A stretch of DNA of 64,000 bases. Origin: Nitrospirota bacterium (GTDB lineage Bacteria; Nitrospirota; Thermodesulfovibrionia; UBA6902). Shown here one piece after another: positions 11,084 to 64,000 of the stretch. Under the pieces are notes generated by a model that saw only the letters and a program-made list of their open reading frames with translations, ran no database searches and was not told where the DNA came from. The position numbers were made by a program, and so were the translations under genes. Where the stretch lies: positions 78,128 through 142,127 of the forward strand of contig JACRHD010000012.1 in assembly GCA_016234115.1 (NCBI GenBank), read 5' to 3'. Positions within the stretch are counted from its first letter, which is position 1, and the number at the start of each line of letters is the position of its first letter.

Positions 11084-12250
11084 ATGAAAATTCCAATTTC
11101 ATACAGCATCCGCAACCTCATGACGCGCAGGCTGACTACTGCCCTGACCGCCTCCGGCATGGCGCTTGTGGTCTTTGTCTTCGCCGCAGTGCTGATGCTT
11201 GCCGAGGGTCTTCAGAAGACCCTGGTGGAAACAGGCGCGCATGACAACGTGGTAATAATCCGCAAGGCCGCGGTCGCCGAAGTGCAGAGCGGTATAGAAA
11301 GGCCGCAGGATTCCGTTGTGGAGACACAGCCTGAAATTGCCACGGGGCCAAAGGGACAAAGATTGCTGGCAAAGGAAATGGTCGTCCTTATCAGCCTCCT
11401 GAAAAGAGGCAGCAATAAGCCCTCTAACGTGGTCATCAGGGGCATAGGTGAAAATTCAATGCTTCTCAGGCCCCAGGTCAGGCTTGCGAAAGGGAGAATG
11501 CCCAGACCCGGTTCATCAGAGATTATAGCAGGAAAGAGCATAGCAAAGAGGTTTCAGGGCGGCGGCATAGGCGAAACAATCCGTTTCGGCATGAGAGACT
11601 GGACGGTTGTGGGGATATTTGACGCGGGGAATACGGGCTTCAGCTCTGAAATCTGGGGTGATGTAAACCAGCTTATGCAGGCGTTCAGGCGGGTCGTATA
11701 TTCTTCTGTTATTTTCAGACTAAGCAATTCAGCGGATTTTGAAAGAGTAAAGGCGCGTATCGAAAGCGATCCCCGCCTTCACCTTGAGGCTGAACGCGAG
11801 ACAACGTATTACACCAAGCAGTCCGAGTTGATGGCAAAGTTCGTCCGTATCCTCGGCGTATCGCTTACCGCGATATTCTCCTTCGGCGCGATCATCGGCG
11901 CGATGATAACCATGTATTCCTCAGTCGCGGGCCGCACAGCCGAGATTGGAACAATGCGGGCGCTTGGATTTCAGAGGAGAAACATCCTTGCCGCATTTCT
12001 CGCCGAGTCGCTGCTGTTAGGTTTCATAGGCGGATGCGCCGGATTATTTTTCGCGTCCTTCCTTCAGTTCTACGCCATCTCAACAATGAACTGGCAGAGC
12101 TTCGCAGAGCTGGCGTTTAGCTTTACGCTAAACCTGAAGATTATTGCCCAGGCCCTCGGCTTTGCCCTGATAATGGGTTTTACCGGCGGCGTCCTCCCGG
12201 CGCTGCGCGCGGCCCGGATGAATATAGTGGATGCGTTGAGGACGTCGTGA
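11084..12250 (+). CDS. FtsX/MacB-type ABC transporter permease 2
   Basis: This 388-residue protein has an N-terminal helix (TTALTASGMALVVFVFAAVLMLAEG), a periplasmic domain and three C-terminal helices (FVRILGVSLTAIFSFGAIIGAMITMYSSVAGRTAEIGTMRALGFQRR ... ). The ARTAEIGTMRALGF segment is the typical FtsX-family coupling motif. It is the paralogue of the preceding permease; together with the adaptor and ATPase they form an export or lipoprotein-handling ABC complex. The start is separated from the first permease by about 230 bp filled with repeats. Confidence 0.84.
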   Translation: MKIPISYSIRNLMTRRLTTALTASGMALVVFVFAAVLMLAEGLQKTLVETGAHDNVVIIRKAAVAEVQSGIERPQDSVVETQPEIATGPKGQRLLAKEMVVLISLLKRGSNKPSNVVIRGIGENSMLLRPQVRLAKGRMPRPGSSEIIAGKSIAKRFQGGGIGETIRFGMRDWTVVGIFDAGNTGFSSEIWGDVNQLMQAFRRVVYSSVIFRLSNSADFERVKARIESDPRLHLEAERETTYYTKQSELMAKFVRILGVSLTAIFSFGAIIGAMITMYSSVAGRTAEIGTMRALGFQRRNILAAFLAESLLLGFIGGCAGLFFASFLQFYAISTMNWQSFAELAFSFTLNLKIIAQALGFALIMGFTGGVLPALRAARMNIVDALRTS

Positions 12251-13687: not shown

Positions 13688-13733
13688 TCTGAATAATGCC
13701 CTCTATTGTCAGACTAATGAATTGAATTTAATA

Positions 13734-13755
13734 TATCAATATTTAAGTCTGACCC
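13734..13755. repeat. Solo end of the Y1-transposase element (AGTCTGACCCT)
   Basis: TCAATATTTAAGTCTGACCCT matches the right end of the 49.5-50.6 kb transposase unit (CTCAATTTTTAAGTCTGACCCT) with three differences. It lies at the truncated 3' end of the DUF5131 pseudogene and supplies its last residues and stop codon. Confidence 0.6.
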
Positions 13756-14320
13756 TCCCCTATTTCGCCGGGGCCGGACTCTCCGCCTGCTATGACCCAA
13801 TCGATGCCTTTTAGATTCAGTTCCGGCATGGGGCCGAGCAGGGGCTCTATGGAAAGAAACTTGATGTAAGCGCCGCTATTGCGCAGGTCATCTATTCGAT
13901 GAATATAATCTTTGTTTTCGACAGTGACGCCCATCCAGATATTCGCGGCCCATGGTAACGATTGACTCAACTCAATGAGCCGTTCAGACCGTTTAGTAAG
14001 CACCTGAAAGGTATGCCAGTGCGCCTTGCTCATGATATCAAAAACCTTCTTGATGAAGTCAAAAGGCACATCTTTCAAAAAAAGGTCGCTCATGGAATTA
14101 ACGAAAATTGTTTGAACTTCTTCCACGTGAGCGGCAGATCGAGCGCGTGCTCATGTAACGCAAGTTTGAATCCGTCCGCATAGTTCGGCTGTCCCATTGC
14201 CTGAAGACGCTTCGCCATCCGCTCCGCATAGCAGTTCAAACAGCCAGGACTGATTTTTGCGCACCCCGTCACCGGGTTCCATGTCGATCCGGTCCATTCT
14301 ATAGATGATTTCTGGCCCAC
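13743..14320 (-). pseudogene. Frameshifted, 3'-truncated DUF5131 (phage Gp37/Gp68-like) gene
   Basis: The gene begins with GTG at 14320 as [38 protein letters not shown], which carries the three-cysteine motif CxxxxxGCxxCYA of the radical-SAM-like Gp37/Gp68 family. Near 14110 the frame breaks: LPLTWKK continues as [13 protein letters not shown] in the next frame, consistent with loss of a single base. The second half runs to IAGGESGPG, where native proteins go on for about 60 more residues; here the gene runs into an AGTCTGACCCT repeat end and stops. It is therefore broken twice. A sequencing error at the frameshift cannot be excluded. Confidence 0.75.
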
Positions 14321-31023: not shown

Positions 31024-31397
31024 CTATCTGTTTCCTCCTGATATTTTCCGGCTGACACCGGATTGGGATAATGAACAGACGCAGAGGACTGCTTTGATGC
31101 AGTAGTAATCTATAGATTTTATGAGGATTTGTCAACAGAACATTAGAAAAAAGCGGTAACCATTCATCAGTTACGGGTTCATGTTATCCCCCTCTTTGGA
31201 AAAGACCAACAGTAGGCGCCTTAAGCAGGTTAGGGGAGATTTTCAGGGGGTGGAACATTGGTGCAAGCAACATGCGGTTTATTGCAGGGCAGCCAATAAA
31301 TATTTATATCGATATTTATTTGTTGCCTATCGCAAATTTCTTCATGTATTCTGATTAGAATAAAATTGCCGGAATTCCCAGGGATGAGGCTCTGCTT
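31024..31397. other. Intergenic region with repeats ahead of the histidine kinase gene
   Basis: About 370 bp without a supported gene. It includes an interrupted mini-repeat at 31187-31250 and an AT-rich stretch around 31300-31330 (AATATTTATATCGATATTTATT) that may be promoter DNA for the kinase gene. No clear -35/-10 pair could be assigned. Confidence 0.4.
31187..31250. repeat. CCCCTCTTTGGAAAAGA-type mini-repeat interrupted by a 22-bp insert
   Basis: The flanks TCCCCCTCTTTGGAAAAGA and GGTTAGGGGAGATTTT belong to the family seen at 10991-11067. Between them sits CCAACAGTAGGCGCCTTAAGCA (31206-31227), which also occurs, with three transitions, inside another repeat at 52944-52965. Confidence 0.7.
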
Positions 31398-42647: not shown

Positions 42648-43042
42648 TTCGCTGTCAGGCCAACAGAAACGACGTTTACAAACGTTTGCGTTTAACTTCC
42701 ACGACTTTCAAGACATGCCCCAAAGAGAACGCACTGCTTACATTAGGTTATACAGCTTTGCCCGGTATTGCAAGGGAATGATAATTTTATTAAAACTTAT
42801 TATAATCGATCTTGCGCTCGGGAGGATTTGTGAGAATAATTCAAGATTCAACATTCAAAATTCAAGACAGAAGAAGTCCGGTAATTTTATCTTGAATCTT
42901 GAATCTTGAATTTTGAATCTTGAATCTTGAATCTTGAATTTTGAATCTTGAATTTTGAATATTTATAGAAGTTTGAAGAAGTGAAAGTGATGGCAACATC
43001 CTTCTTTTTGCGGATTAAACAGCCTGCACGGTTTTATGATCT
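42648..43042. other. Intergenic region between HD-GYP and radical SAM genes
   Basis: No gene seen in 395 bp. ACGTTTACAAACGT (42672-42685) is a short dyad about 25 bp upstream of the HD-GYP start and might be an operator. The rest from 42839 is a heptanucleotide island. Confidence 0.4.
42839..42961. repeat. Heptanucleotide repeat island (TCTTGAA / TTTTGAA type)
   Basis: One arm has ATTCAAG-type units (AAGATTCAACATTCAAAATTCAAG); the other has about ten TCTTGAA or TTTTGAA units in a row (42890-42960), its reverse complement class. The two arms form a long imperfect hairpin. It is the longest such array in the window. Confidence 0.8.
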
Positions 43043-49327: not shown

Positions 49328-49548
49328 CTTGCTTGACCAGGATTATTCATAAACTCCGGGAGGGGACTTTGTTTTTCATGCAGACACTACCTGACCGGGG
49401 TCAATTCCTCCCAGTGCAGATTGGAGCCGATATTCGGATTATAGCTCGGGATGTCTGTAACTACATACTCGCCGAGGTTGTTGGCAAAGGCGCGGCCGCG
49501 GACGGGGAAAGAAGGAAGAGGGTCAGACTTAAGAGCGAAAGAAGGAAG
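49328..49548. other. Short intergenic stretch next to the transposase element
   Basis: No supported gene. The track offers only shadows. On the minus strand a short frame ends GEYVVTDIPSYNPNIGSNLHWEELTPVR, which may be the tail of an unknown protein interrupted by the transposase unit, but I do not recognise it. Confidence 0.3.
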
Positions 49549-49562
49549 AGGGTCAGACTTAA
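49507..49562. repeat. Tandem duplication of the transposase left end
   Basis: GAAAGAAGGAAGAGGGTCAGACTTAA occurs twice with a 30-bp period (49507 and 49537). The second copy contains the start of the terminal inverted repeat of the transposase element. Confidence 0.8.
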
Positions 49563-50594
49563 AAATTGAGTTTCTTAATTGATCTGCCCACCCATTCCAT
49601 ATCAGCTTCAAATATTTCTTTATCTTTAAGCGTCATCGATATTATAGCAGGATCTCTTCCCAGATATTCCGCTATCTCTTTTCCTTTATAGCCATATTCC
49701 ACGGCCAATAGAATAAATATCTTCCTGCTTAATGATATGCCGGCAAGTTTACTCTTTCCACGTATTTGTTTGAGAGTCGTTCCCTTTGAATCCTCCACAC
49801 ATTTCGCTATTTCTGCCAAAGTATATTCCCCCGCCCTCTTCTCCTTCTTTAATTCTCCATCATACCTTTCTATTACATTGTCCAGAAATTCTTCGCTTCC
49901 AAGCACTCTCTGGTCGATTGTTCTGTAAATATCATCTCTTGTTATGGCAAGTCCATCTCCCATAAACTCTCTATACAGCCTTCTCGATGTCGGTTTGTCT
50001 TCAGAGAAGAGCCTCAAAACACGATCCGTGTCAACTATACTGTTCTCTTTCTCTCTGCCTGCATAAAAGTTATGACTGCTCCAATTATAATCCTGTAATT
50101 CCCTGACCATTTTTGCCCTTAGAGGATTCATGTGAATGTATTTAATAAGTGAAAGCAGATAAACATCCCTGTCACACAGGATCGCCTTATATCTCCCTTG
50201 AAAGTGATGCCCGACTGTTTTATGCCTCCTGTTAAAATACATCGTATAACTCTGGTTTATTCCTTGCTGTATTTTTGACAAAGGCGTCCTGCCGACTTCC
50301 ATTAACAGATGCACATGATTACTCATCAATACGTAGCTGTATAAATAGAATTGATACCGTTTCTTGTAATTGGATAGGATTTCAAGATATTTCAGAATGT
50401 CTTTTCTGTCTCCGAATATCTTTTCTCTCCGGTTGCCCCGGATTATTACGTGATAGAACGCCCCTTCGTACTCTATCCTCGGTTTCCTCGCCATGTCCCC
50501 ACGTCCCTGATGATGAATAAATCTGTAACAGCTTACACTCAGTAATGCAATTATTTCAAGCTGATTAATATCTCAATTTTTAAGTCTGACCCTG
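49549..50594. mobile_element. Y1-transposase element with 22-bp terminal inverted repeats
   Basis: AGGGTCAGACTTAAAAATTGAG (49549-49570) is the exact reverse complement of CTCAATTTTTAAGTCTGACCCT (50573-50594). The unit of 1046 bp contains one gene. Long perfect terminal inverted repeats are unusual for Y1 (HUH) transposases, which usually have subterminal hairpins. A related solo end lies at 13734-13755. Confidence 0.8.
49559..50494 (-). CDS. REP-associated (Y1/HUH) tyrosine transposase
   Basis: The 311-residue protein has the transposase IS200-like core: RIEYEGAFYHVIIRGNRREKIFGDRKD, MSNHVHLLMEV (HxH metal site) and INQSYTMYFNRRHKTVGHHFQGRYKAILCD (catalytic tyrosine region). A C-terminal region of about 100 residues looks like an HTH (TLAEIAKCVEDSKGTTLKQIRGKSK ... 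IAEYLGRDPAIISMTLKDKE). This is the RAYT family. It lies inside a 1046-bp element with perfect 22-bp terminal inverted repeats, and its stop lies within one of them. Confidence 0.88.
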   Translation of the reverse strand: MARKPRIEYEGAFYHVIIRGNRREKIFGDRKDILKYLEILSNYKKRYQFYLYSYVLMSNHVHLLMEVGRTPLSKIQQGINQSYTMYFNRRHKTVGHHFQGRYKAILCDRDVYLLSLIKYIHMNPLRAKMVRELQDYNWSSHNFYAGREKENSIVDTDRVLRLFSEDKPTSRRLYREFMGDGLAITRDDIYRTIDQRVLGSEEFLDNVIERYDGELKKEKRAGEYTLAEIAKCVEDSKGTTLKQIRGKSKLAGISLSRKIFILLAVEYGYKGKEIAEYLGRDPAIISMTLKDKEIFEADMEWVGRSIKKLNF

Positions 50595-50605
50595 CCCGAC
50601 ACATC

Positions 50606-51245: not shown

Positions 51246-52811
51246 TTATTTTTTCCTCTTCTCCTTATACATCTTCACAAGATACGTCAACTCTTCACTC
51301 TTGAGCATGCGCATAATCAGGACATACACCGCGAGATAAAATAAAACCGCTGCGATCATGATGCCGGTCTTTTCGACGGTCCTCCCTCCATGCATCCATA
51401 TATCTCCCCTGACTATGAGCCAGCCGGCAATCCCCGTTACCGCGGAGGCGGCGGATATCTTCATGAAAGACGCTGCTATCTTCCTTCCGTCGACATTGCC
51501 CAGCTTTTTTCTCAACATGAAAAAAAGGACGCAGAAATTCGCCGATGCCGCTACGGAATTGGCGAGAGCGAGCCCGCTGTGCCTGAGCGGCTTCAGCAGA
51601 AGCAGGCTGAGAATGATATTGGTTATTACGGCAAAGACCGCTATCTTTACCGGCGTCTTTGTGTCCTGCATGGAATAAAAGCATGCCGTTACGATACGCA
51701 CACCGACAATGGCCCATATCCCAAGGGAATAGAAAAGCAGGGCCTCTGACGTGCCGAGGGTCGCGGCGTATTGAAATTTGCCTCTCTGAAAAAGTATGTT
51801 CACTATCGGCCCTCTCAGCGCTATCAGTCCCGCCATCGCCGGGATGGTGATAAAGAACAGCATCCTCAGGGCGAATGAAAAATCGCTCCTCAGATGACCG
51901 AACTCCCCTTTCGCGGCATGCGCGGACAGCGCCGGAAGCACCGCCATCCCCATGGCGACGCCGAATATCCCAACGGGAAACTGGATGAGTCTCATCGAGT
52001 AGTAAAGATATGTAATGCTTCCCTCCGGCAGATAGGACGCGAGGATTGTGCTGACAAATATATTGATCTGCACAACGGCCATCCCCATTGTTGCCGGAAG
52101 TATCAGGACGGACATCCTCTTCAACCCGGGATGCCCGAAATTCAATTCAGGCGTTAATGAATAACCGTTCTTATAAAAAGAAGGCAGTTGAAAGGCAAGC
52201 TGAACCAACCCCCCTGACACTACGCCTATCGCGACCGATACGATCGGCTGTTGAAGCGCCTGAGACAATAAGAGCACCGCCGCGATCGTAACGACATTCA
52301 GCACGGCGGGGGCCAGTGCGGGCATGAAAAAGACCCGTTTCGTATTAAGCGCCCCCATTACAAGAGATGCAAGGCTCATAAAAAGCAGGAACGGGAACAT
52401 CACCCTCGTAAGAATTACCGTCAGCTTGAACTTTTCCGGCTGGACCAGGAAACCGGGCGCTATCGCGGCAACGAGCGCGGGGGCGAAAATGACGCCGGCG
52501 ACGCAGACCAGACCTACAACGATCAGGATGGCCGTGAAAGTAATTCTCACGAGCCTCCGGGCTTCTTCTTCCCCCTGCCTTGTCCGGTATTCCGTCAGGA
52601 CCGGCACGAACGCAGAGGACATGGACCCTTCCGCAAAAAGCTCCCGCAGGAGATTAGGGACCCTGAACGCTACAAAGAACGTGTCCGAAAGGCCGCTCGC
52701 CCCGAAAAAGACCGCCAGTATCATGTCCTTGATATACCCGAGTATCCTGCTGATGAAGGTCGCCACCGACATCAGACCGGCCGCCTTTGTTATGTTCTTT
52801 TTCTCATCCAT
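51246..52811 (-). CDS. murJ: MurJ lipid II flippase
   Basis: The 521-residue protein has about 14 membrane helices and the MviN/MurJ start (ITKAAGLMSVATFISRILGYIKDMILAVFFGASGLSDTFFVAFRVPNLLRELFAEGSMSSAFVPVLTEY). It is the family that flips lipid II in peptidoglycan synthesis. Upstream lies a repeat-rich region and the S20 gene. Confidence 0.93.
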   Translation of the reverse strand: MDEKKNITKAAGLMSVATFISRILGYIKDMILAVFFGASGLSDTFFVAFRVPNLLRELFAEGSMSSAFVPVLTEYRTRQGEEEARRLVRITFTAILIVVGLVCVAGVIFAPALVAAIAPGFLVQPEKFKLTVILTRVMFPFLLFMSLASLVMGALNTKRVFFMPALAPAVLNVVTIAAVLLLSQALQQPIVSVAIGVVSGGLVQLAFQLPSFYKNGYSLTPELNFGHPGLKRMSVLILPATMGMAVVQINIFVSTILASYLPEGSITYLYYSMRLIQFPVGIFGVAMGMAVLPALSAHAAKGEFGHLRSDFSFALRMLFFITIPAMAGLIALRGPIVNILFQRGKFQYAATLGTSEALLFYSLGIWAIVGVRIVTACFYSMQDTKTPVKIAVFAVITNIILSLLLLKPLRHSGLALANSVAASANFCVLFFMLRKKLGNVDGRKIAASFMKISAASAVTGIAGWLIVRGDIWMHGGRTVEKTGIMIAAVLFYLAVYVLIMRMLKSEELTYLVKMYKEKRKK

Positions 52812-53132
52812 AAAATATTGTTATTCGTTACATGTTGAGATCACATGTTATTTACATCTGCTTCAGTTCGTCATTCCCGAGGTATTTATCGGGAATCCAG
52901 TATTCTTAATACCAAGTGCTTCTGGATTCCCGCTTAAGGATTGCCAACAGTAGGTGCTTTAGGCACGGGAATGACGGCGATCGTCTTATCCACATAATTC
53001 CCAATGGAATATTACATCTAATTAAATAACAGTCTTCTCTCTCAACGGTTGACTTTACCATACAGTTAATGTTAAAAAATATAACATTTTTTCCGGATAA
53101 ATTTTAAACTTTTCATAAAGGAGGGCAATCAA
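52812..53132. other. Intergenic region with a mini-repeat between murJ and rpsT
   Basis: About 320 bp holding one palindromic CGTCATTCCCGA mini-element (52869-52976) and AT-rich DNA before the S20 ribosome site. The S20 promoter should lie here; I see no firm -35/-10. Confidence 0.4.
52869..52976. repeat. CGTCATTCCCG-type mini-repeat carrying a 22-bp insert
   Basis: CGTCATTCCCGAGGTATTTATCGGGAATCCAG opens and GGATTCCCGCTTAAGGATTG...CGGGAATGACG closes the copy. Between the last two parts sits CCAACAGTAGGTGCTTTAGGCA (52944-52965), which also occurs in the unrelated repeat at 31206-31227. Confidence 0.75.
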
Positions 53133-57604: not shown

Positions 57605-60600
57605 TTACGGATTTATTGTTATAGATTTAGCGTAATTGTTGTTTGTCTCGCTCTTTTCAGCTATTATACCCGTCGCATCCGACCTGGCTATGATGTATCG
57701 GGCGCCGGCGGCTGTTCCGGCAGGTATGGTCACAGACGCGCTTCCGGTATCTGTCGCACCTGCCGTGAGTGCGGCCACTGCCCTTTCTCCTATTAACGTA
57801 TCTCCGGCATCGTACGTACTGTTGGTCGAGAGATAGAACCTGGTCGTTGACGCGCCCGCGCCGCCCTGACCGCTGTTTTTTGTCGAATCCGTCACGGTGA
57901 TCGTCGCCCCTGCCGCTGCGCTTGAAGGCGCCGTAAGGGCCGATACCGTGAGGTCGGGTCCGATGCTGATGGCCTTGCTCAGGTTGTTGTTGGTCTCGAG
58001 CAGTTCTACGACGACGCCGGCGGCATCCGCTATCGCTATTATGTAGAATGTACCCGAGGTTGTTCCGACGGGTATGGTTACAGACGCGCTTCCGGTATTT
58101 GTCGCCCCCGCCGCGATTGCCGCCACTGCCCGCTCTCCTATTAACGTATCTCCGGCATCGTACGTACTGTTGGTCGACAGATAGAACCTGGTCGTTGACG
58201 CGCCCGCGCTGCCCTGACCGATGTTCTTGATCGAATCCGTCACGGTGATCGTCGCCCCCGCTCCCGAGCCTGAAGGAACTGTAAGCGCCGATACCATGAG
58301 ATCATATCCTATCTTTACAGGCGCGCTTATATAATAATTGTTGGTCTCGCTGAGCTCCACAACAGCGCCGTCCGTATTCGCCTCCGCTATGATGTAGTAT
58401 GTGCCGGTTGTTGTTTCGGCAGGTATGGTTACAGACGTGCTAACGGTGCTTGAAGCCCCTGCCGCCAGCGCCTCCACGGCCCTTTCCCCGATAGAAGTGT
58501 CTCCGGCGTCATATGCCGTGTTGGTCGACAGATAGAACCTGGTCGTTGACTCGCCCGCGCCGCCCTGGCCGATATTCCGTGTGGTGTCCGTTACGGAGAT
58601 CGTCGCCCCGGCTGCGGCGCTTGAAGGCGCTGTAAGGGCCGATACCGTAATGTCCGTCCCTATTCTGATGAGTGTGCTCACGTAATTATTATTGGTCTGG
58701 CTCACTTCTTCGACAACGCCGTCTGCGTTCGCCCTTGCTATGACGTAGTACTCGCCCGCGACTGTGTCGGCAGGAATGGTTACAAGCGTGCTTCCGGTAT
58801 TCGTCGCGCCTGATGCGAGGACCGGGACCGACCTGCTGCCGATTAACGGATCTCCGGCGTCATAGGTGATGTCCGTCGACAGATAAAAGCTTGTCGTCGA
58901 CACTCCTGCGTCGCCCTGGCCGATGTTCTTTGTTGTTTCCGTCACGGAGACCGTAGCTCCGGCCCCGGTGCTTGACGGCGCCGTAAGGGCCGTTACTGTA
59001 AAATCGGTCCCTATATTGATAGGCTTGGCAAAGTTGTTGTTTGCCGCGTTCAATTCAGCAATGGCGTTGATCGCGTTCGCCTTCGCTATGATGTAATACG
59101 GGGCCGCAGATGTTCCGGCAGGTATGGTCACAGATGCGCTTCCCGAGCTTGAGGCCCCTGCCGCAAGGGGCTCGACAGTCCTGCTTCCGATAAGCGTATC
59201 TCCTGCGTCATAGGAGCCGTCCGTCGAGAGATAGAAACCGGTCGTTGTCGCCCCTGCGTCATCCGGGCCGAGGTTCTTTGTCGTGTCCGTCACGGAGATC
59301 GTTGCTCCTGACGCCGCGCTCACAGGCACTGTAAGGGCGGTCATCATGAGATCGGGTCCTATTTTGATTATTGTGCTTGTGAAGAAATTGTTCGTCCCGT
59401 TGAACTCCGCAACGGCACCGTCCGCATTGGCCCTTGCTACGATGTAGTATTCGCCCGCGACTGTGTCGGCAGGAATGGTCAGCGATGCGCTTCCGGTATT
59501 TAATGCCCCTGTTGCAAGTTCAGGGACCGATCTTCCGCCGATGTACGTATCTTCCGCATCATAGAAAATGTTAGCGGAGAGATAAAACCCGGTCGTCGTC
59601 GTCTCTGCGTTGCCCTGGCCCATGTTCTTTGTAGTATCTGTCGCAGAGATCGTTGCCCCGGCCCTTGCGGTTGCCGGAACCGATACGGCCGTCACCGTGA
59701 GATCAGGTCCTACGCTGATTGCTTCACTCACGTAATAATTGTTTGATTCAGACAGCTCCGTAACGACGCCGCCTGCGTCCGCCTTTGCGATGATGAAGTA
59801 CGTACTGGCGGTTATCCCTGCGGGGATGGTCACGGACGCGCTCCCGATGTTTGTCGCCCCTGTTGCAAGGGCAGGCACGGACCTGCTTCCAATAAGCGTA
59901 TCCGTCGCGTCAAACGTGATATTCGTCGACAGATAGAACCCTGTCGTTGACGCGGCCACGTCACCCTGGCCGGCATTGACTGTCGTGTCCGTCACTGAGA
60001 TAGTTGACCCGGCCTCTGCGCCGTCCGGCACTGTAAGGGCCGACACTGTAAGATCAGGTCCTATTTTGATTGATTTGCTGAAGTTGTTATTGGTCTCGCT
60101 CAATTCCCCGACGGAGTCGTCCGCGTCGGCCTTTGCTATGATGTAATAAGCGCCGGCGCTTGTTCCAGCGGGAATGGTTACGGACGCGCTTCCCGTATTT
60201 GACGCCCCGGCCGCGATGACCGGCACAACCCTGTCGCCGATAAGCGCGTCTCCCGGGTCATAAGCGGCGTCCGCCGACAGATAGAACCCGGTTGTCGACG
60301 CCCCTGCATCCCCCTGACCGACATTATTGGTAAGGTCTGTCACGGAGATTGTTGCTCCGGCAGCCGCGTTTGCCGGTACTGTAAGGTTAGATACTGTGAG
60401 ATCAGGTCCTATTTTGATTATTGTGCTTATGTAGAAATTATTAGTCTCGCTCAACTCCACGACAGCGCCGTCAGCATCCGCCTTTGCGATGATGTAGTAC
60501 TCGCCGGCGGCTGTTCCCGCAGGAATGGTCACGGTCGCGCTTCCGGAATTTGACGAGCCTGACGTCATGGCCGCCACGGCCCTGTCGCCGATAGACGTAT

Positions 60601-63600
60601 CTCCCGCTCCATACGTGGAGTCCGCCGAGAGATAGAATCTGGTCGTTGATGCGCCGACATCCCCGTATCCGACGTTCCTTGTCGTATCTGTCACAGAGAC
60701 CGCTGAGCCTGCCGCCGCACTTGCCGGCACTGTAAGGGCCGTTACTGCAAGATCAGGCCCTATATTGATTATTGAGCTTACATAATAATTGTTCGTTTCG
60801 CTCAACTCCGCTACAGCGCCGCCTGCATCCGCCTTTGCAATAATGCGGTACGCCCCGGCAGATGTCCCGGCAGGGATGGTCACAGTCGCGCTTCCGGTGC
60901 TTGCCGTCGCTGACGGGAGAGCAGAAACAGACCTGCTTCCGACGGAGAGGTCTCCAGCGTCATATGAGGCGTCCGCCGACAGATAGTAAGCGGTCGTCGA
61001 TCCCCCGGCATTCCCCGCGCTGACGTTGTTCGTAGTGTCCGTCACAGAGATCGTCGCTCCCGCTCCGGAGCTGGCCGGAACCGTCAAGGCAGAGATTATG
61101 AGATCAGGCCCTATATTGACGGACCTGCTCAGGTAGTTGTTGGTCCCGCTGAGCTCCCCGGCAGCGCCATCCGCGTTCGCCATCGCTATAATGTAATATG
61201 TGCCCGCGCCTGTTTCCGCAGGAATGGTTAATGTCGCGCTTCCCGCGCTTGTCGACCCTGCCGCAATAGCCGCCACAGCTCTCTCTCCGATCTTCGTATC
61301 CGCCGCGTCAAATGTATAGTCCGCCGACAAATAGTACCAGGTCGTCGACGCCCCCGCTTCACCAGCACCGATGTTGCCGGTCACATCCGAAACGGAGATC
61401 GTTGCTCCGGCCCCCGCGCTTGCCGGTACTGTAAGCGCCGATACTATAAGATCAGGTCCTATATTGATTTGTCTGCTGAAGTAATTGTTGGTCCCGCTGA
61501 GTTCCGCGACAAGGCCGTCCGCATTCGCCATCGCTATAATGAAATACGCGCCCGCGCCTGTTCCGGCAGGAATGGTTACAGACGCGCTACCCGAATCCGA
61601 GGCCCCCGACGCCACAGGCTGCACTGTCCTGCTTCCAATGAAGGTATCCGTAGCTTCGTCATACTCGTTGTCGGTTGACAGATAAAACCCGGTCGTTGAG
61701 GCCTCTGCATCTCCGTCGCCGACGTTATTTGTCGTGTCCGTCACGGAAATAATGTCCCCTTCCGCCGCGATTGCCGGCGCTGTAAGGGCCGACACAATGA
61801 GATCAGGTCCTACGTTTATTTGTCTGCTGAAGTAATTGTTGGTCCCGCTAAGCTCCCCGACAGCTCCATCTGCATTCGCCCTTGCTATTATATAGTAAGC
61901 GCCGCCGGGTGTATCGGCAGGAACAATAACGTCCGTACTTCCGGCATCGAACGCCCCTGCCGCAAGCGCCGCCACAGCCCTGCTTCCTAAAGGTGTATCT
62001 CCGGCGTCATACGCAAGGTCCGGCGACAGATAGAACCCGGTCGTAGAAGTCCCGGCATCACCCTGGCCGGTGTTATGCGTCGTGTCTGTAACAGTGATTG
62101 TTTCTCCGGCTGATGCGCTTGCCGGGGCTGTAAAGTCTGAAACCATTAAATCAGGTCCGATGCTTATGGATTCAATATAGTAATTGTTTGTCTCGTTCAG
62201 CTCCGCCACAATACCCTCCGCATCCGCCTTTGCTATGATGAAATACGCGCCCGCAAATGTTCCATCGGGTATGGTTAAAACGGCGCTCCCGGTATCCGAT
62301 GCCCCTGATGCGAGAGTCAGCGCCGCCCTGCCTCCAAGCTCGGTGTCACCCGCGTCCCACGTGCTGTCCTCTGAAAGATATATCTTCGTTGCCGCAGCCG
62401 CGGGGCATCCCCCGACGTTCCGGGTCGTGTCCGTAACTGTTATGGTCTTGCCTGCTCCCGACACAGTCGGCGCGGAAATATCCGATACAGTGAGGTCAGG
62501 GCCCGTGCTGATGGGTTTACTGTTGTAATTATTTGTTTCGCTCATCTCAGCAATAATACCGTCGGCGTCCGCTGCCGCGATAATGTAGAATGTGCCTGAA
62601 CACGCGCCTGCCGGAACGTTAATAGTCACTATGCCGGAACTACCGGCTCCCGGTTCAAGCGCCTGCGCTGCCATGGTCCCGAGATATGTGTCTCCGGCGT
62701 CCCATGAGCTGTCCGTTGACCAGTATAATTTTGTTGCCGATGCCACCGCCGGGTCTGTGCCCTGGTTCTTTGTTGTGCCGCTTACAGATATGTTTGTCCC
62801 GGGGAATGCCGTTGATGGGACATATAATGAGATTACTGTAAGATCGATATTCGAGGTCTGGCAGTTGGGGTCCATGGCATCTGTTAATCCGTCACAGTCA
62901 TTGTCATTTCCGTCGGAACAAATCTCTGTTGAGGGCGCGCCCGGATTGCAGTTATTGCTTCCCCAGTTGCCCGTGGTGCAGGTCTCTGTCCCCGTTGAAG
63001 CGCATGACCCTACTCCGCAGCTTGTAGGCTGTGTAAGGTTTTCATCTGCTGCGCCGTCACAATCATCGTCTGCGTTATTGCATATCTCCGCGGAGGGCGT
63101 TCCTGCCGAGCATGTGTCACCGCCGAATACTCCGTTCGTGCAGGTCTCTATTCCCGTGCTTGCGCATGCCCCTACTCCGCAGCTTGTCGGCTGTGTAAGG
63201 TTTTCATCTGTTGATCCGTCACAGTCATCGTCTATATTGTTGCATATCTCCGTGGAAGGCGTTCCTGCCGTGCATATGTAGCCACCGAATACTCCGTTAG
63301 TGCAGGTCTCTATTCCAGTGCGTGCGCATGCCCCTACTCCGCAGCTTGCAGGCTGTGTAAGATTCTCATCCGTCGAGCCGTCACAGTCGTCGTCTATTCC
63401 ATTACACGTCTCTGCGGAAGGTGTTCCCGCTACGCATGAATCCACTACCGCTCCGGCTTCGCATGACGTTGAGCCTGCTGATGCGCAAGACCCAACTCCA
63501 CAGCTCGTTGCTGCAGGTGCATAGTTCTCATCCGCTGTTCCATTGCAGTTCTCGTCAGCACCATTACAGTTATCGTCTGCGCCAGTCGGGCTTCCCGCTA

Positions 63601-64000
63601 CGCATGAATCCACAACAGCTCCGGCATCGCATGACGTTGAGCCCGTTGATGCGCACGCCCCAACTCCGCAGCTCGTTGCTGCAGGTGCATAGTTCTCATC
63701 CGCTGTTCCATTACAGTTCTCGTCAGTACCATTACAGTTATCGTCTGCGCCAGTCGGGCTTCCCGCTACGCATGAATCCACAACAGCTCCGGCATCGCAT
63801 GACGTCGAGCCCGTTGATGCGCACGCCCCAACTCCGCAGCTCGTTGCTGCAGGTGCATAGTTCTCATCCGCTGTTCCATTTCAGTTCTCGTCAGTACCAT
63901 TACAGTTATCGTCTGCGCCAGTCGGGCTTCCCGCTACGCATGAATCCACAACAGCTCCGGCATCGCATGACGTCGAGCCCGTTGATGCGCACGCCCCAAC
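57605..64000 (-). CDS. Giant surface-type protein with MopE-like and CARDB repeats (partial at the right edge)
   Basis: The visible protein of about 2100 residues ends at 57605. Its C-terminal part has 15 CARDB domains of about 115 residues each, recognisable by motifs such as GPDLTVSALTVP, FYLSTDxxYDAGD, TIPAGTxAGxYYIIAxADADG and SETNNYxS. N-terminal to them lie seven or more Cys-rich 54 to 56-residue units (CNGxDDDCDGSTDENLTQPxSCGVGACA), which are MopE-type metal-binding motifs. It is predicted to be secreted. The real gene begins outside the window. Near 63881 an in-frame TGA replaces TGT (Cys) in one repeat copy, which is why the track begins later (63781). Function: probable large adhesin or surface-layer repeat protein (inference). 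Confidence 0.75.
57606..62860 (-). repeat. Fifteen CARDB domain repeats
   Basis: About 345-350 bp repeat units encode 15 copies of the CARDB (cell adhesion-related) domain. Their DNA sequences are similar, which suggests expansion by tandem duplication. Confidence 0.8.
63523..64000 (-). repeat. 168-bp near-identical Cys-rich repeats
   Basis: The phrase starting AGTTCTCATCCGCTG recurs at 63523, 63691 and 63859, a 168-bp period (56 codons). Copies differ in few positions, so this is recent tandem duplication. Confidence 0.8.

Follow-up and report, generated by a model that had tools for sequence, protein, structure and literature searches.

IS200/IS605 elements insert without duplicating their target, carry strand-specific hairpins and enter beside a short sequence. 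GTAG-tagged REPs are sequences of 20-40 bp that reach high copy number, are scattered across phyla and have a stem of 5-13 bp (PMC3733652, PMC8266576); their GTAG is terminal, and some REPs are nested in palindromes (PMC3733652). The Marinomonas REP consists of GTAG, 2 nt and a short stem with a TTTA loop; cleavage by its enzyme falls at CA or CT, a dinucleotide that GTAG helps to select, and T-T-N-A is required in the loop (PMC8266576). REPINs, which are inverted REP pairs, have been proposed to move as single-stranded hairpins, with REP singlets regarded as immobile remnants (PMC3116915). Mitochondrial double-hairpin and repetitive hairpin-forming elements are likewise tiny and scattered, lie in intergenic repeats and RNA genes, and insert in tandem (PMC2800124).

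The 22-bp sequence described here, noticed at two places in a stretch of Nitrospirota DNA (the window, meaning the whole 64,000 nucleotides analysed), is very probably a mobile insertion unit, judging from comparison of its copies and their surroundings. To our knowledge it is among the smallest mobile-looking DNA units. Its consensus, CCRAMAGTAGG-N-GCYTTARGC-N', divides into CCRAMA, GTAG, a single G and a hairpin, N-GC-Y / TTA / R-GC-N'. Almost every copy has GTAG at positions 7-10, immediately ahead of the hairpin and internal rather than terminal; rare diverged relatives (L178, L263) lack it. Among 318 copies picked by the left half plus a loose core, N and N' covary, being Watson-Crick in 90% against 47% if independent (C-G 169, T-A 106, G-C 10); part of this excess is shared history, since the copies are related, but a single family of genomes can show several N-N' types. 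T-G or C-A forms the pair beside the loop in most copies; the stem, of 3-4 bp, folds weakly (0 to -3 kcal/mol). Diverged relatives (L178, L259, L263), some with an altered GTAG (CCAACTTTAGGTGCTTTAAGCA, CCAACCTTAGACGCTTTAGGTG) and one with a longer loop, suggest that the search pattern does not cover the whole family.

Resemblance to GTAG-tagged REPs and their RAYT system lies in size class, GTAG beside a stem-loop, copy number, scatter among phyla and nesting in palindromes; the unit differs in having its GTAG internal, after a conserved CCRAMA, in its stem of 3-4 rather than 5-13 bp, in the lack of a flanked RAYT gene, and in precise 22-bp boundaries with empty sites. With REPINs it shares shortness and non-autonomy, but it is mostly single (locus L053, below, is the sole inverted pair in the source genome) and bears marks of insertion. 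Because two REP features (stem length and a flanking RAYT) and the inverted pair of the REPIN failed, we do not file it as a REP or REPIN, even if it may work like a REP. Insertion without target duplication, a strand-specific hairpin and entry beside a short sequence are shared with IS200/IS605; the unit differs from these in lacking a gene, in having a single tiny hairpin where they have two and, in Nitrospirota, in having no fixed tetranucleotide target. The mitochondrial hairpin elements are the nearest look-alikes outside bacteria, and are organellar, unrelated in sequence and usually stronger in their stems.

Both copies in the window stand exactly where the original prediction placed them, differ solely by the three transitions it named and lie, as it stated, in unrelated host repeats, the copy at 31206 in family B and that at 52944 in family A (Table 1). 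With 3 mismatches allowed the window contains the 22-mer at just these two places, and 100 shuffles gave none. Removal of the 22-mer, said to restore the hairpin arm in both cases, does so at 52944, leaving the exact standard hairpin GGATTCCCGCTTAAGGATTG^CGGGAATGACG, but not at 31206, where GGTTAGGGG is left instead of the family B consensus GGGGTTAGGGG, so that two Gs have also been lost from this copy. Rfam covariance models gave no match around the 31206 site at E<=1. Elsewhere in the window, positions 42889-42965 hold a tandem array of the 14-bp unit ATCTTGAATTTTGA, and 57605-64000 a minus-strand ORF of 2058 aa in which a repeat of 348-351 bp recurs about 12 times; repeats of 162 and 168 bp then continue to the window's end.

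Table 1. Unit copies and host repeats in the window.
Feature	Sequence	Position	Strand	Basis or remark
22-bp unit copy 1, CCTTAA subtype	CCAACAGTAGGCGCCTTAAGCA	31206..31227	+	Window and genome pattern search
Host palindromic repeat, family B	CCCCTCTTTGGAAAAGA^GG(GG)TTAGGGGAGATTTT	31188..31243	+	Unit in 3' arm; two Gs lost just 3' of unit
22-bp unit copy 2, TTTAGG subtype	CCAACAGTAGGTGCTTTAGGCA	52944..52965	+	Window and genome pattern search
Right-hand hairpin, host family A	ATTCCCGC...CGGGAAT	52924..52976	+	Unit in 3' arm, adjoining loop
Complete family A repeat	CGTCATTCCCG...CGGGAATGACG	52869..52976	+	Between minus-strand gene (51246-52811) and rpsT

Mobility was to be given up if the word proved confined to these two sites; a search of the 3.5-Mb source genome (G000) for CCAACAGTAGGYGCYTTARGCA with at most 3 mismatches found it at 64 places, against 3 for the reversed control. 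Alignment of all 64 shows that almost every copy is an insert of exactly 22 bp in a member of one of two palindrome families. Inserts in family A (GATTCCCGC-loop-G^CGGGAATGAC) are almost always of the TTTAGG subtype, those in family B (CCCCTCTTTGGAAAAGA^GGGG..AGGGGAGATT) of the CCTTAA subtype. Other members of these families, which had been suggested for inspection as possibly always empty, are mostly so: 79 of 100 among the family A matches listed (loop tally), and 29-31 of the 43 family B members genome-wide, where 1-2 borderline copies hinge on how the arm is read. Loop variants are common to empty and filled copies, so fill state is not simply the mark of one subfamily. A family B member (L053) has two oppositely oriented units, either of which, read on its own strand, follows the loop on the 3' side. 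The palindrome around one further copy (L054) is of another kind, GGCCACAG^TCTGTGGC. We also considered, and rejected, the idea that the unit represents the remnant ends of a larger element, since its halves practically never occur apart in this genome: 56/56 left halves and 59/60 right halves lie within full units, the exception being a copy with a diverged left end.

Empty sites, for which a comparison with related genomes had been proposed, were found in several settings. A congener with no unit copy anywhere (G007) has the repeat empty beside rpsT (GGATTCCCGCTTAAAGACTGCGGGAATGACG); we infer that this repeat is orthologous to that of the source genome, since the same pair of genes encloses it. 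Among the loci compared no relative has both flanks of the 31206 site, and hence no empty site can be demonstrated there. In group II introns the Rfam models align around the unit, reading it as inserted sequence rather than as a family match, with exactly 22 extra nt at UCUGAAG^GAAG (L064, L083, L105) and, in another model, an insertion at GUCAGC/GAGG of 23 nt for 1 consensus position (L067); a third intron position is CGGCA^AGGG (L145). Intron-borne units were seen at these three positions in several genomes (L064/L083/L105/L155; L067/L085/L094; L145). In a Methylobacter metagenome-assembled genome (MAG) the unit breaks a transposase ORF, apparently IS630-type by its sequence, at LTLVMD^N; the ORF has 359 codons once the flanks are joined. 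At two loci (L202, L166) a unit lies inside another, and removing one restores another complete unit. Across families A and B, the congener's rpsT locus, the introns and the IS630-type ORF, empty and filled sites differ by 22 bp with no target duplication. Merging flanks at 50% identity leaves at least 51 distinct insertion contexts (82 at 60%). The original prediction offered two explanations, insertion of a tiny mobile unit into hairpins or a shared recombination product; genome-wide copies, empty sites, unrelated hosts and unit-in-unit insertion bear out the former, and we reject the latter because it would not put a unit of constant 22-bp extent into over 50 contexts.

Distribution of the unit is patchy. 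Within Nitrospirota it occurs in 28 of 396 genomes of the phylum (at most 1 mismatch); of 61 relatives, 20 match when 2 mismatches are allowed, two or three of them through a lone two-mismatch hit that is probably due to chance, and many close relatives are without it. A scan of GTDB genomes returned at least 113 stretches, which among the matches listed come mostly from Methylobacter and other Gammaproteobacteria, with Nitrospirota, Nitrospinota, Chloroflexota and others also represented. By calculation about 7 chance matches are expected over the whole collection, and a few single matches are therefore chance; one that reads as a ribosomal protein gene (L194) is probably of this kind. Isolate genomes hold 17 to 78 copies each (at most 2 mismatches), which rules out an artefact of MAGs. 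Collections of plasmids, phages and E. coli gave no match except one of 21/22 on a Saccharobesus plasmid, and an IMG/VR contig (L093) has one copy at 11909-11930 (-), adjoining a CCCCTC palindrome. Group II introns may be carriers of the unit between phyla. Closely spaced copies also occur: in one genome (G181) the distance between two units is exactly 22 bp, and Exilibacterium tricleocarpae (L367-L375) has arrays, lying in the same larger repeats, in which a 19-bp core, AAAGTAGGCGCYTTARGCG, equal to the unit minus its CCA, comes 2-4 times after a (CCA)n run. A literature search did not find the 22-bp sequence, and the 7 matches to an 11-mer were all in unrelated papers; since most subscription papers and preprints lay outside this search, the unit may have been described earlier.

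Target preference was assessed on reconstructed empty sites. Nitrospirota-type inserts fall in a hairpin loop or 3' arm in 10 of 15 context clusters and in a 5' arm in 0, a preference with p about 1.5e-4 relative to shifted positions. Gammaproteobacterial inserts have no general hairpin preference (p=0.65) and favour the sequence CA^A-n-GC, although several still lie at palindrome centres (GGCGACTG^AAGTCGCC, GCAAGCA^AAGCTTGC). The CA of these CA^A targets matches one of the two cleavage dinucleotides reported for the Marinomonas GTAG-REP enzyme (PMC8266576).

How these copies arose can be read in several ways. A few ancient insertions, one founder per repeat family, could have been followed by spread solely through repeat or intron amplification and recombination, the unit itself being immobile now. 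Each family in the source genome having its own subtype (TTTAGG in A, CCTTAA in B) agrees with such a history, as do the many copies elsewhere that clearly ride larger repeats or introns; we nevertheless judge it unlikely in view of the many distinct contexts, which include coding sequence, single palindromes (L054) and the unit itself, and of family A, which contains different unit subtypes depending on the genome (L079, L082, L090). The sharing of loop variants between empty and filled members also speaks against it, with the reservation that gene conversion could give the same pattern. Less probable still is an RNA-templated origin, in which a reverse transcriptase, such as that of a group II intron, would turn a short transcript into DNA at the ends of hairpins: ORF clustering at the at least 113 loci listed revealed no recurrent reverse transcriptase gene near the unit, no source transcript is known and most copies lie outside introns, even though units at three different places within group II introns, and N-N' covariation as expected of an RNA hairpin, are what it would lead one to expect.

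High conservation of the 22 bp across phyla might instead reflect selection on an immobile functional site, such as a protein-binding or RNA-processing signal, in terminator-like palindromes. This is very improbable, being contradicted by the empty sites: most family members are empty, the unit interrupts an ORF and introns exactly, units are found within units, and many close relatives do without it. We prefer a reading that combines mobility, target preferences, spread inside repeats and introns and an HUH step, and give it as a whole a probability of about 0.5. According to this reading, 5'-CCRAMA-GTAG-G-N-GCYTTARGC-N'-3' is a discrete, non-autonomous mobile unit that inserts without target duplication at many unrelated sites, preferring hairpin loops and 3' arms in Nitrospirota and CA^A in Gammaproteobacteria, and that gains further copies as a passenger in other repeats and in group II introns. 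It would move as single-stranded DNA, with cleavage after a YA or purine site and strand transfer into an exposed hairpin, catalysed in trans by an HUH Y1-type nuclease, as supposed for GTAG-tagged REP sequences.

Likeness to single-strand HUH chemistry is seen in the clean insertion, the orientation fixed relative to the hairpin, GTAG beside a stem-loop and CA at the junction. Searches for the enzyme gave the following. None of 60 Y1_Tnp loci, a subset of the Y1 genes of carrier genomes, is flanked by the unit, and one unit copy lies about 160 bp from a Y1 gene, which is about chance level. A Y1 match is present in all 12 genomes with at least 5 copies (p=0.04, uncorrected for kinship), which is weak tracking, and is just marginal in one genome with 18 copies (G034). 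In M. marinus 22 of 43 copies are on the leading strand, showing no evident bias in a count blurred by the many copies that ride repeats. Clustering of neighbouring ORFs among the at least 113 GTDB loci listed found recurring clusters, none mobiliser-like. Given the absence of a unit-flanked Y1 among those 60 loci, the weak tracking and the lack of an evident strand bias in M. marinus, we hold movement by a Y1-type enzyme in trans to be slightly short of an even chance. The weakness of the unit's own hairpin also speaks against the preferred reading. The window has its own Y1_Tnp (RAYT-like) gene at 49559-50494 (-). Inverted copies of GGGTCAGACTTAA border it, with two copies in 49507-49562 and one in 50565-50597, and an orphan lies at 13728-13760. 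This sequence is apparently the gene's own tag and distinct from the 22-bp unit; the gene is unsupported as mobiliser, and a viral contig collection yielded no relatives of it. A new class of mobile DNA, in which a single-hairpin 22-bp mover that has crossed phyla recognises hairpin tips or CA^A through its own dedicated enzyme, appears doubtful to us at present.

The unit accounts for a common sequence in unrelated intergenic palindromes, group II introns and an IS gene. As it is present in cultured methanotrophs and in a cultured marine bacterium, its enzyme and its movement can be searched for directly. If the preferred reading is true, mobile DNA units would extend down to a size of about two helical turns, and the unit, if mobile, would challenge the published view of single REP-like units as immobile remnants (PMC3116915).
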